The translations under genes and the position numbers were made by a program. Shown piece by piece: positions 15,152 to 20,501 of a DNA stretch of 64,000 bases. The notes below the pieces were generated by a model. The model searched no databases. It was not told the DNA's origin and saw nothing but the letters and a program-made list of their open reading frames with translations. Numbering within the stretch: position 1 is the stretch's first letter; each line of letters opens with the position of its first letter. The stretch is from NCBI RefSeq assembly GCF_029589435.1, contig NZ_JARRAG010000001.1:1106808-1170807 (forward strand), written 5' to 3'. This DNA is from Paludisphaera mucosa (GTDB taxonomy: Bacteria > Planctomycetota > Planctomycetia > Isosphaerales > Isosphaeraceae).

Positions 15152-18100
15152 TCACCGAGCCGCCGGCGCAGGTAGGATCGCGACCGCGGCGCGTCGAGAA
15201 TCGGCGAAAATCTCGGAGGCCGCGCGGCGAAGGCTCGACGCCGTGACCCCTGCGAGAGCCGCCTTCATCCGGGCGGGATCGATCCCGAGCTGCTCGCGGC
15301 GCCCCAGCGCGAAGGCGACGCCGTAGAGGTTGGCCCCGAGCGCCTCGTCCGGCAGGTCGGACGCGCCCAGGAAGAAGCCGAACATCGAGGCGACCTGCGT
15401 TGTCTCACCGGCCGCGAGTTCTTTCCCGATCAGCCCGGAGATCCAGCCGTCCACCCGGCGCGTCGTGTCTTCCGGCGCTTCCCCATCTCTCGCGACGCTC
15501 GACGCGACCATCGCGGCGGGATCGTCGAGCAGGGGCATATGGACCTGGACGGCGGTCGTCGGGTCCATCCCGGCCGTCATCAGTCGGGCTCCCAGGACGG
15601 CATAATCCGCGTAGAGCGGGTCCGTGGGCTGTGGGGCCGAGACCGCCACGGCGGAGATGGCCGGACCTGCGCCGGTCGTCGTCGCGATCTGCGCGTGTTT
15701 GGTCGGCGTCGTGCCCGGCTCTCCCGCTCGAGGGAGTTCATCACCGGCTGGAATCGCACCGAAATGACGTTCGATCAGGGTCTTCGCCGTCGTCGGATCG
15801 ACGGCGCCGGCCAGCGCGAGGATCGCGTTGCGGGGCTTGTAGTAGCGACGCCAGCGCTCGCTGACCTCGTCGGCGGTCATCCTGGCGACATGCTCGGGAA
15901 GGCCGCCGCGGCGGCCGCCGTTCGGACTCGGTCTGACGATCTCGCGAGCATTATTCACGGCCGCGAGAGTGGGCACGCGGTCGAACATGGCGGAGACCTC
16001 TTGCAGGAGTCGGGGGCGCTCGCGATCCAGATCCGCGTCGGTGATCGTCAACGCTCCCATTCGCGCCGCCGCCTCGCGAAGCTCGGCGTCCAGATCGGAG
16101 GCCAGGGCGACGGTCGCGAAGGCCGTGTAGCGATCTCCCGTCTGGGCGTTGCATCCCGCGGGATAGCGCTGGAAGAATTCCTCGGCCGACCGGACGGGCG
16201 CCCCTCCCGCCGCGGCCGTGACGTAAACGTGTTCCACGAGGTGCGCCAGGCCTGATCGACCTTCCGGATCATGGTCGCCGCCGATGTCATAGAGGATGAC
16301 GACGGAGACCTGTGAAGCCCCGGAAACGGGACGTAACAGGACTCTCAAGCCGTTGTCCAGTCGGATGGGCGTCGTCCTCTGCGGCTGCGAATGGCTCGTG
16401 CAACCGGCGAGTCCGAGGAGCCCCGTGAAGAGAAGCAGGGGCACCGGCCTCGACTTACCGGAGGTCTTGCGTCGGTACATCAGAGTCGCCCTCGCCAACT
16501 CGATCGCCAGGGCGGCCCCCCCCAGCACCAAACCGGCCGACCGGGCGTGAATCAGGCTCCCTCTCAGGAGTTGAACGATGGGACGATCCAGCTCCGGCAT
16601 GCCGCTCGGGCCGCCGGCGAGCCAGGCGGCGGCGACGTCGCGCGCCACGGCGGTCTGATGGGCGATCGCGGCCCCCCCGAGAGCTGTCTCCCAGGCCACG
16701 GCCAGGCCTCCGAGGGCCACCCGTCGGGCCACGGCCGCCCCGCCCACGGCCAACTCGCCGACCGCCAGGCCTCCCATTGCAATGCCGCCGAAAGCCGCGC
16801 CGCCGATGGCCAGCAGGCCGCTCGCCAGTCCGCCGAAGCCGACGATGCCAACGGCGACCCCGCCGAAACTCGCGACGCCGATCGCAGTCCCACCGATCGC
16901 CACCCCGCCCACGGCCCGCGTCCCCACGGCGAGCACGACCCCGAGGGCCTCGTCGCCTACGGCGATCCAGCCTCTTGCGGAGCGTTTGGGAGCGGCCGGC
17001 TCGATCTCGACGCCGTCTCGGTCGAACGCGGGCGGGTCGCCGACCTGGACGTCGATCAGCGGCAACCCGAGGAGTTGTAGGTCGCTGCGGTAGACGCGGC
17101 CTTGGACGCGCCGTGCCATGTAGGCCATGCCCCGCCGCATCGGGCTCCGATTGGCATCGTCGACCGGAACTCGAGATTCACGGACCAATCGGATGCTGCG
17201 ACTCAGCCTCCAAACGTCCAGCAAGACCGCGACCTGGAAAGCGACCACCGCAGCGAGCCAGGTCGGCAGATACCAGCGAGTGCCGCCGCCGATCTGGATG
17301 AAGAGGAGCAGGAAGGCCAGGAAGCCCAACGAAACGAAGAGCATCCTTCGACCGAATCCGAGGTAGAGATCGCGCTCGCGGAGGGTGGGCGCGGCTTGCG
17401 CCGGCAGCCAGGCGCCGAGCCATCCTCCGGCCAGCCCGGCCAGGGCGCCGAGAAGTCCCGAGGCCGCGACGGGAACGGCGGCCGTCCGGATCATCGTGCC
17501 GCCGAATGCGGCTGCGGTCTTCGCGCTCGTGCCGGCCAGGCCGATTCCCGCCATCACGCCGGCCGTGAAGGAACGGCCGGGACGCGTGCGCCGCAGGCCG
17601 TCCTCGACAAGATCGGCGAGCCGGTCGCGGAGCAACGCCCGACCTCGGGCGAGCCGCTGTTTGACGGCGTCCACGGAGACGTCCAGCGCCGCGGCGACGT
17701 CGGCGACCGATTGGTCCTGGCGGTAGTAGAGGATGAGCGGTTCGCGGTAGAGGCTCGGGACCTCGCCCAGCGTCCGCCAGATCAGGGCCTTCTCCTCCTC
17801 TCGCAGGGCCGCCTCCGCAGGATCGAGGCCCGGCGCTTCACGGTCCGTGGCGAGCTTGCCAAGCTTCGAGGACCGCGACGCGGCCGCATGGCGGGCTGCG
17901 TTCGCACCCAGGTTTCGCGCGATGCCGCAGAGCCAGGGTCGCAGACGGGTAGGGTCGGCAAGCGAATCACGACCGCGCCAGGCGGCCCAGAACGTCTCTT
18001 GGGCGACATCCTCGCTGGTCGCGAGATCTCCGCACGCGTTGAACGCCACGCCGGAGACCAGCGATTGGTGCCGTAGCACGACCTGCTCGAACGCCTCGCG

Positions 18101-18166
18101 GCTCCCGGCGCAGGCCTGCCGCCAGAGGTCCGCGTCCGCCGTCGCCGTTTCGATTTCCGTCGTCAT
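15152..18166 (-). CDS. ECF sigma factor fused to membrane/Gly-rich repeat region and M16 zinc peptidase
   Basis: One uninterrupted frame of 1004 residues with three parts. Residues about 20-186 are an ECF sigma factor: region 2 includes SEDVAQETFWAAWRG and RPWLCGIARN, and region 4 includes LPSL/VPSLYREPLILYY and DVSVDAVKQRLARGR. Residues about 233-321 contain two or three hydrophobic helices. About 401-515 is a Gly/Ala repeat (AIGGxAxG type). After another hydrophobic helix (543-564) comes MYRRKTSGK, a lipoprotein-like signal ending LLGLAGC (Cys 589), then a roughly 410-residue M16B peptidase. The peptidase has the inverted zinc motif HLVEH at 642-646 and a candidate third ligand Glu in LLQEVSAMFD near 723. 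I start at the ATG 18166, which has GGAG six bases upstream. A GTG at 18196 is also in frame. Whether it is one protein or is also translated from the ATG at 16480 is open. Confidence 0.85.
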   Translation of the reverse strand: MTTEIETATADADLWRQACAGSREAFEQVVLRHQSLVSGVAFNACGDLATSEDVAQETFWAAWRGRDSLADPTRLRPWLCGIARNLGANAARHAAASRSSKLGKLATDREAPGLDPAEAALREEEKALIWRTLGEVPSLYREPLILYYRQDQSVADVAAALDVSVDAVKQRLARGRALLRDRLADLVEDGLRRTRPGRSFTAGVMAGIGLAGTSAKTAAAFGGTMIRTAAVPVAASGLLGALAGLAGGWLGAWLPAQAAPTLRERDLYLGFGRRMLFVSLGFLAFLLLFIQIGGGTRWYLPTWLAAVVAFQVAVLLDVWRLSRSIRLVRESRVPVDDANRSPMRRGMAYMARRVQGRVYRSDLQLLGLPLIDVQVGDPPAFDRDGVEIEPAAPKRSARGWIAVGDEALGVVLAVGTRAVGGVAIGGTAIGVASFGGVAVGIVGFGGLASGLLAIGGAAFGGIAMGGLAVGELAVGGAAVARRVALGGLAVAWETALGGAAIAHQTAVARDVAAAWLAGGPSGMPELDRPIVQLLRGSLIHARSAGLVLGGAALAIELARATLMYRRKTSGKSRPVPLLLFTGLLGLAGCTSHSQPQRTTPIRLDNGLRVLLRPVSGASQVSVVILYDIGGDHDPEGRSGLAHLVEHVYVTAAAGGAPVRSAEEFFQRYPAGCNAQTGDRYTAFATVALASDLDAELREAAARMGALTITDADLDRERPRLLQEVSAMFDRVPTLAAVNNAREIVRPSPNGGRRGGLPEHVARMTADEVSERWRRYYKPRNAILALAGAVDPTTAKTLIERHFGAIPAGDELPRAGEPGTTPTKHAQIATTTGAGPAISAVAVSAPQPTDPLYADYAVLGARLMTAGMDPTTAVQVHMPLLDDPAAMVASSVARDGEAPEDTTRRVDGWISGLIGKELAAGETTQVASMFGFFLGASDLPDEALGANLYGVAFALGRREQLGIDPARMKAALAGVTASSLRRAASEIFADSRRAAVAILPAPAAR
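16478..16480 (-). promoter_or_regulatory. Possible internal translation start for the M16 lipoprotein
   Basis: ATG inside the fusion gene, preceded by GCGAGGGCGACTCTG, which gives a modest Shine-Dalgarno at about 8-9 bases. Translation from here would produce a conventional lipoprotein M16 peptidase of about 440 residues, signal peptide KSRPVPLLLFTGLLGLAGC included. Confidence 0.4.
16622..16966 (-). repeat. Short-period Gly/Ala protein repeat inside the sigma-M16 fusion
   Basis: Encodes about 115 residues with a recurring five- to six-residue unit of the form A-[I/V/F]-G-G-x-A, for example GGVAIGGTAIG, GIAMGGLAVG and VALGGLAVA. The periodicity weakens at the C-terminal end. It resembles short-turn beta-helical or membrane-embedded glycine-zipper repeats. 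The coding DNA itself is not a simple tandem repeat. Confidence 0.7.
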
Positions 18167-18298
18167 CGCCGTCTCCAGGGATGTACCGCCTGGCACGACC
18201 GGAGGCCATTTTCCGAGGCCATCGATCTTCCATCCCTGAGTGGCACCGCGACGTGATATGGTGACAGGAATTCGGCGGCGAGTCGATCGGCGCGCGGA

Positions 18299-19514: not shown

Positions 19515-20501
19515 ATGACTCGGGATCTCGCCGAATGCAACGGCTCAAGGCGGGACTGGATTTATCGTGCGACGGCGACATTAGGTCTCTCGGCGCTCGG
19601 CGTCCCGCCGCTTTGCGACCGGCTCTCGAACGCCGAGGAGCCGCCGCCGGCCGCCGGCGAGCCCGAACGGATCGCCAAAATCGAGGCCCAGGCGAAGCAC
19701 GCGGGCGTCACACCGATTGGGGTCTCCAGGACGACCCACTTCCTGGGCGTCGGCAACGCGTCGGGCCCGTTTCGCAAGCAGGCCCTGGAGATCTGCGAGG
19801 CCCTCGGCCGGGTCTTCCTGAAGCACCTACGCGACCGAGGATTCCGCGTCGTCTACCCGGATCGACGCCTGATGGTCGTGGTCCTGCGGGACGCGATCTC
19901 GTACGGCTCGCTCGTGGGCGAGGCCCCGGGCAAGGACGTCGGCGGCCACTTCGACCTGGACGCCGACCGCCTGGTCGTCTTTGATTTCCGGCCCGATCAG
20001 GGCGTCGGAGGCACGGCGGAGCGGATTAATACATTTACGCTCGTTCACGAAACCGCCCACCTGCTCACCTTCAACACCGGGCTGCTGGCGGCCGACCCAG
20101 AGCCTGCGAAGTGCATCACGGAGGGCCTCGCCACCTATTTCGAGATGTGGCGGCTGGCCTCGAAGGCGCCGGTCGGGCGAATCAATCAACCCCGACTGAT
20201 CGCGATCCGCGACGCCTTGAAGGCCGGCGAACCGTGGATCTCGACGAAGAGCCTGATGACCGAGGACGCGCTCTTCGACGACCCCAAAACGGCCCAGCTC
20301 GCCTACGGACAGAGCTGGCTGATGATGTACCACTTGCTCTCATCCCGCTCGATCTGGCCGAACGTGGTCGACTACCTGGCCGACTTACGGACGAATGGAC
20401 GCGGCGGCCGCGTCGCGATGCTTGAGAAGCATCTGGGGCCCATCGCGACGCTCGACGATCGGCTCCGGACTCTAGGCCGGGATCTGGTTCGCGGCCTCTG
20501 A
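19515..20501 (+). CDS. DUF1570-like exported metalloprotein (HExxH)
   Basis: A 328-residue protein with a zinc-metallopeptidase-like site. LVHETAHLL carries HETAH (HExxH), and about 25 residues later comes ITEGLATYFE, whose Glu is the likely third ligand in the gluzincin manner. This arrangement is typical of DUF1570 proteins of planctomycetes. The N-terminus has SRRDWIYRATATLGLSAL, a plausible twin-arginine signal, so export is expected. The preceding part (RVFLKHLRDRGF ... RRLMVVVLRD, shortened) matches the family's N-terminal lobe. It is convergent with the secA-like gene, with a gap of 14 bp. Peptidase activity is predicted from the motif only. Confidence 0.75.
   Translation: MTRDLAECNGSRRDWIYRATATLGLSALGVPPLCDRLSNAEEPPPAAGEPERIAKIEAQAKHAGVTPIGVSRTTHFLGVGNASGPFRKQALEICEALGRVFLKHLRDRGFRVVYPDRRLMVVVLRDAISYGSLVGEAPGKDVGGHFDLDADRLVVFDFRPDQGVGGTAERINTFTLVHETAHLLTFNTGLLAADPEPAKCITEGLATYFEMWRLASKAPVGRINQPRLIAIRDALKAGEPWISTKSLMTEDALFDDPKTAQLAYGQSWLMMYHLLSSRSIWPNVVDYLADLRTNGRGGRVAMLEKHLGPIATLDDRLRTLGRDLVRGL

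Follow-up and report, generated by a model that had tools for sequence, protein, structure and literature searches.

The window analysed here, a stretch of 64,000 nucleotides (nt) from Paludisphaera mucosa (contig NZ_JARRAG010000001.1, positions 1,106,808 to 1,170,807), carries a gene in which an extracytoplasmic function (ECF) sigma factor and an M16B-type zinc peptidase are joined in one chain. The gene is a single frame on the minus strand (15152..18166) that runs from an ATG at 18166 to a stop at 15152 and encodes 1004 residues with no internal stop; an alternative GTG start at 18196 would add 10 residues. An initial annotation, made from the sequence alone, had read the frame as sigma regions 2 and 4, hydrophobic helices, a Gly/Ala repeat and an M16B-type peptidase, and Pfam searches, an AlphaFold model and the position of the third zinc ligand bear out this order. 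Coordinates below refer to the window and, for parts of this gene, to the minus strand.

The sigma portion contains sigma-70 region 2 (residues 30–93, 17888..18079; Pfam PF04542, Sigma70_r2, E = 3e-10) and region 4 (residues 128–179, 17630..17785; PF08281, Sigma70_r4_2, E = 1e-10). The peptidase portion matches Peptidase_M16 (residues 611–727, E = 2e-6) and Peptidase_M16_C (residues 763–862, E = 9e-10). All four matches exceed the curated cut-offs, as does the sigma-70 model TIGR02937 of NCBIfam. The domain library scan gave no match to sigma region 3, which is the ECF layout, and the best matches listed in a fold search with the sigma half were ECF sigma factors such as RpoE, AlgU and SigW. 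No anti-sigma domain of the zinc-finger or FecR kind was found in the fused protein by Pfam at E ≤ 1.

Hydropathy and the AlphaFold model predict three membrane helices behind the sigma domain (residues 231–257, 262–293 and 299–330; 17177..17476), followed by the Gly/Ala-rich repeat, a predicted beta-solenoid (residues ~396–507, 16646..16981), and a fourth hydrophobic helix (residues 529–563, 16478..16582), at the end of which the sigma proteins of unfused relatives terminate (..LMYRR..). The model of the whole chain has a mean predicted local distance difference test score (pLDDT) of 83.7 and a predicted template modelling score (pTM) of 0.51. The pLDDT is ~83–95 in the repeat and only ~50–86 in the first helix (231–257), and drops below 50 at residues 211–236 and at the junction (567–593). 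A second, poorer model (pLDDT 67.8) contains the same repeat elements at lower confidence. The 50 matches listed in the sigma-half fold search consist of sigma factors together with further models from transcription or of RNA polymerase, with none for the repeat, and the repeat has no convincing sequence relative in the PDB (best E = 0.74).

The peptidase domain (residues 596–1004, 15155..16381) is predicted to adopt the two-domain fold of an M16B subunit of ~400 residues. It matches the M16B subunit 3AMI in fold (Foldseek E = 3e-22) and PA0372 (4NNZ) in sequence (E = 2e-18). The zinc-binding and catalytic motif HLVEH (residues 642–646, 16229..16243) is an intact HxxEH, and Glu723 (15998..16000) is located 77 residues after His646, such that His642, Glu645, His646 and Glu723 represent the expected zinc ligands and catalytic glutamate. 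None of the 22 peptidase-subfamily copies, 14 of them in the alignment, seven from other classes and one the frame-broken copy L035, has lost the motif or the third-ligand glutamate. The window peptidase resembles the Sphingomonas enzyme (3AMI/3AMJ) and PA0372 in fold and sequence; however, these are free M16B enzymes, whereas that of the window is fused to a sigma factor. M16 enzymes typically enclose peptides that are short or unfolded, and are not known to cut membrane-bound linkers.

The same open frame is present in five of the six Paludisphaera genomes examined: that of the window, G001, G002, G003 (Paludisphaera soli JC670, locus L026) and G005. The other four fusions are 54–59% identical to the window protein over ~1000 residues, with 65–77% in sigma region 2 and 69–73% in the N-domain of the peptidase. 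The junction segment (508–595) is only 21–40% identical to that of the window, although no fused genome has acquired a stop in it; its variability is comparable to that of the linker between the two sigma regions (94–124, 16–48%). Third-position GC content is at least 0.65 in each 40-codon block across the junction. Since five genomes of the genus share the same open frame, the fusion is not a sequencing error, nor is it due to a stop lost in one assembly; the error or missing stop near 16480, for which the initial annotation had allowed, can thus be set aside. The sixth genome, G004, encodes the sigma half only, in a protein ending in MYRRRRA followed by a stop, and contains no peptidase-subfamily copy at E ≤ 1e-50. 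A weak 23-residue match after this stop (E = 0.026) is either a remnant or due to chance. In the sigma tree, G004 branches within the fused group, and a topology that unites the five fused sequences to its exclusion is rejected (approximately unbiased [AU] test, p = 7e-5). This nesting rules out G004 as a primitive unfused state, and we conclude that G004 lost its peptidase.

Across the family Isosphaeraceae, the subfamily profile (E ≤ 1e-50) identified 13 peptidase copies in 12 of 45 genomes. Of these, ten form one frame with an ECF sigma factor, two adjoin such a gene and one stands alone, so that 12 of the 13 are fused or adjacent; the suggestion that homologues might always encode the two parts as separate genes is thus contradicted. 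The fusions fall into three types. Type A1 comprises the five in Paludisphaera. Type A2 is found in two genomes of another genus (G040 and G041), where a plain linker joins the repeat to the peptidase and both the fourth helix and the signal sequence described below are absent. Type B (G021, G045 and a second copy in G055, Singulisphaera acidiphila) consists of a different ECF sigma factor, a hydrophobic segment, a linker and then the peptidase; the three loci (L040:190-2370, L092:6357-8582 and L094:318-2537) belong to two further genera, Singulisphaera acidiphila and genus g17. In G009, the peptidase gene lies directly behind the sigma gene with an overlapping stop and start (TGATG), and the unfused copy of G055 lies behind a sigma gene with a gap of 88 nt; both arrangements look like the operon that preceded the fusion.

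As the sigma parts of types A and B differ, the two represent separate joinings; the peptidase thus seems to have been joined on two or more occasions, to different sigma factors and through different junctions. The trees and the differing junctions make two origins within type A (A1 and A2) likely, though not proven. In the sigma tree, G009 with its separate genes groups with A2 (97/95), and in the M16 tree G009, G055, G014 and A2 fall together (82/89). Topologies that hold A1 and A2 together are not rejected (AU p = 0.10 for M16 and 0.23 for sigma), consistent also with a single origin; nor are those that join A1 with B (p = 0.22) or unite all fused M16 copies (p = 0.053). An earlier M16 tree with distant outgroups was set aside on account of its long branches.

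Outside the family, profile searches of samples of larger groups, with four peptidase candidates scored per genome, found eight copies, one in 397 genomes of the class and seven in 392 genomes of the phylum; the frame-broken copy L035, which did not come from these searches, is a ninth. In the stretches around them, no ECF sigma factor is fused to, or lies next to, any of the nine (four sigma queries, E ≤ 1e-3), the only ECF gene found nearby being one 4.6 kb from the copy in G416. Therefore, the link between sigma factor and peptidase seems to have arisen within the family. The copy in G197 (L095:5738-8391) belongs to a run of genes that includes one for a DUF2089 helix-turn-helix protein and one with no Pfam match. 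The sigma half forms a family in its own right and is more widespread: its profile (E ≤ 1e-60, three candidates scored per genome) matches in 37 of the 397 class genomes, mostly in unfused frames of ~490–740 codons, and is fused to the peptidase in seven and has the peptidase next door in two. Each half also occurs alone, which rules out the fusion as a feature of the family as a whole. In three relatives of the sigma half (L087, L088 and L089), further predicted membrane helices replace the repeat, as judged by eye.

An ECF-promoter-like element, TGTCAC-N15-TGCCAC, is located 73 nt 5′ of the ATG (18240..18266, minus strand). It occurs once in the window, compared to 0.02 expected. The form YGTCAC-N15-YGCCAC precedes the sigma gene in all six genus genomes with identical spacing, and among 24 genes of the sigma family with upstream sequence, some of them close relatives and several with uncertain start codons, the element is present in strict form in 14 and in loose form in 18. 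Neither form was found upstream of any of 15 other ECF genes in the window's genome, and the element is absent before the lone G014 peptidase. That a promoter of ECF type accompanies a single sigma family is most readily explained by self-activation; the sigma factor thus probably drives its own gene, with the window sigma factor as the putative reader of the element. A stricter pattern gave 37 matches in nine genomes (2–7 each), eight of which are the sigma gene, and its control gave one, in G055; the sigma gene of G002 misses this pattern at the last base. Frame length does not separate coding from non-coding matches, as the elements of the sigma genes themselves lie under frames of 141–539 codons. 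The element of this sigma family (TGTCACC-N14-YGCCAC) resembles the ECF41 promoter (TGTCACA-n16-CGTC) given in the available part of PMC3426412.

Several features bear on the location of the peptidase. All 12 unfused copies, L035 included, start with an export-like hydrophobic sequence, as judged by eye. In type B, a hydrophobic segment separates the sigma factor from the M16 part (19-residue mean hydropathy 2.06 in G021, 1.93 in G045 and a weak 1.33 in G055), which, if inserted, would place the peptidase outside. A1 fusions have the fourth helix plus the signal at the junction and A2 fusions have neither; with two crossings or none, the peptidase of either type is expected to share the side on which the repeat ends. 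Together, the export-like starts and the type B segment point to a peptidase at the outer side, away from the sigma domain.

In most cases, ECF sigma factors receive signals from outside via a relay of separate proteins (sensor, protease and anti-sigma factor); the fused gene instead combines the sigma factor and a zinc peptidase, its active site intact, in one chain. As the same peptidase has been joined to two different sigma factors, the pair is marked as functionally linked, and since no copy seen has lost its zinc site and the joining involved two kinds of sigma factor, the peptidase is unlikely to be idle. We put at roughly one in two the probability that the window protein is a membrane-tethered, self-regulated ECF sigma factor whose outer domain is an exported M16B-type peptidase that was once encoded by the next gene of its operon. 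In this scheme, an exported peptidase would have been co-transcribed with a self-activating membrane sigma factor, and the joining of the genes would have made it the outer domain of that factor. The sigma domain would reside in the cytoplasm, held at the membrane by the helices and the solenoid, and the peptidase would act outside on peptides of the cell envelope. By driving its own gene, the sigma factor would produce the peptidase within a narrow positive loop; the peptide load on the peptidase may in turn alter the state of the tethered sigma factor, whose release, if any, would be brought about by other proteases, as for IutY (see below), and not by the M16 domain. Sequence alone does not distinguish whether the peptidase is an output, a sensor or both.

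Several observations weigh against this proposal. G014 retains the peptidase without a sigma gene, in a neighbourhood where its sister G055 has a sigma–peptidase pair. In 28 of the 37 sigma-half genomes, no peptidase-subfamily copy was seen among the four candidates scored per genome; together with the loss in G004, which is one of the 28, this indicates that the peptidase is not essential to signalling by the sigma factor. The promoter-like element is absent before the three type B genes (only 189 nt were available for G021), and its exact matches in the window's genome number eight, compared to three for the reversed control. The exact motif scan for a wider regulon established no second target; the one match common to four genus genomes lies within a conserved coding frame. 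The charge distribution is also at odds with the simplest topology. Counts of Lys and Arg in 24 proteins are 2–6 and 3–6 at the two ends of the 262–330 hairpin, 1–2 before helix 231–257 and 0–2 within the hairpin, which places both ends of the hairpin in the cytoplasm, and the LMYRR-type tail after helix four, where gaps remove the count for unfused rows, likewise looks cytoplasmic. Therefore, either the repeat or helix 231–257 must cross the membrane against simple rules. Mean hydropathy in 19-residue stretches of the repeat reaches 2.0 in the window protein and 2.35 in a relative, and based on the charge pattern the very hydrophobic Gly/Ala pentad-like repeat may cross or lie in the membrane; the domain could be a membrane-spanning beta-solenoid. 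A cytoplasmic tail also fits, by eye, the relatives in which extra helices replace the repeat.

The alternative with the most weight, which we consider possible but hold only tentatively, is a polyprotein: one chain would be made and cut before Cys589 to release the peptidase as a lipoprotein from a sigma factor that stays in the membrane, such that the fusion would ensure equal amounts from a single promoter and the two parts would be unlinked after the cut. By eye, residues 563–589 (MYRRK...LLGLAGC, 16400..16480) resemble a lipoprotein signal sequence embedded in the chain, a feature new relative to the initial annotation, with a charged start (MYRRK), a hydrophobic core and Cys589 as the lipobox cysteine. 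Four of the five genus fusions have such a lipobox (LAGC, FSGC, LAGC and LAGC, by eye), and a lipobox cysteine at the position of Cys589 is also present in unfused peptidases (G009, G055 and G014); G434 has a lipobox cysteine too. A precedent exists in the bacterial cytochrome b/c1 polyprotein, which is cleaved at an internal signal. However, the G002 fusion has lost the cysteine, G040 and G041 have neither signal nor junction helix, and no lipobox is seen by eye in the type B linkers (G021, G045 and G055). Fusions therefore persist where cutting at a lipobox is impossible, and a polyprotein fails to explain A2, B and G002. Under the proposal of a tethered sigma factor with an outer peptidase, signal peptidase II may also cut at Cys589 in the four genus fusions with a lipobox. 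A separate start of the peptidase at Met563 may be available to the window gene, but the methionine is absent in P. soli (L026: ..RILYRR..).

A further reading, which we regard as doubtful, is a one-protein envelope sensor in which peptides that enter the outer M16 chamber would be the signal; their binding or turnover would be relayed through the solenoid and the helices to the sigma factor, resulting in more sigma–peptidase protein. The fusion makes the question of whether the peptidase can be the sensor of the sigma factor open to test by point mutation.

Plain co-expression, in which the stop codon between overlapping genes was passively lost and the peptidase is a housekeeping enzyme of the envelope with no role in signalling, appears improbable. 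The overlapping genes of G009 and the occurrence of each half alone (G004, G014 and most sigma-half genomes) are what it would predict, but it does not readily account for at least two joinings with different sigma factors and junctions, or for a frame that has stayed open in five species despite the low identity of the junction.

The least probable mechanism is the one offered in the initial annotation, a relay in which an outside signal makes the peptidase cut its own chain or a partner and so frees the sigma factor, since it has no support beyond the intact zinc ligands, whereas in the best topology the membrane separates the peptidase from the sigma domain, substrates are enclosed by the M16 fold, and unfused sigma proteins manage without the peptidase.

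Proteolytic release of a membrane sigma factor is itself known: IutY of Pseudomonas putida (ECF243) is released by Prc and RseP, according to the available part of PMC8999054. Like the window protein, IutY combines an ECF sigma factor, a membrane anchor and a further part in one chain and is activated at the membrane; unlike it, the extension described there is an anti-sigma factor and no enzyme (PMC8999054, same portion). The layout of sigma factor, transmembrane segment and outer domain is shared with ECF52 (SCO4117) and other ECF proteins with transmembrane extensions; in the same portion of that source, however, the outer domain of SCO4117 binds carbohydrate, and a zinc-finger domain but no peptidase is described (PMC8999054). 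ECF41 can be likened to the window protein in its C-terminal extension, self-contained locus and very narrow target set, but its extension is soluble and SnoaL-like, with no membrane part or peptidase mentioned in the accessible portion of the source (PMC3426412). The planctomycete ECF-WD40 proteins (ECF57) also have a large C-terminal extension, with a WD40 propeller instead of a peptidase. In the literature searched, no sigma–M16 fusion is described, in agreement with the initial annotation, although the 2021 ECF re-classification, which may list such a group, fell outside the search.

ECF sigma factors of Tuwongella immobilis were recovered from detergent fractions, as reported in the available part of PMC8567305, which would fit membrane attachment of long ECF proteins. 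From the window's genome, 18 stretches with long ECF proteins were taken and, after three were dropped, 15 proteins were scanned. All 15 have a hydrophobic segment past residue 190 (best 19-residue mean 1.5–2.3). Pfam identified DUF1559 in two, carboxypeptidase-regulatory-like domains in four (one also with redoxin) and WD40 in one, and found no outer domain in eight. Given the outer domains on other long ECF proteins, the window protein fits a design of ECF sigma factor, membrane segment and outer domain, and its peptidase is an addition to the outer domains of long planctomycete ECF proteins, whose inputs are mostly unknown. L120:1131-4460 encodes a 1110-residue ECF sigma factor with a hydrophobic segment, carboxypeptidase-regulatory-like domains and a C-terminal AhpC/TSA redoxin, and at L115:2272-4131 and L122:2037-4268 ECF sigma factors are joined through a hydrophobic segment to DUF1559 (SBP_bac_10). 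Near the fused gene, a plus-strand frame of 328 residues (19515–20501) contains an HETAH motif and possibly encodes another zinc protease.

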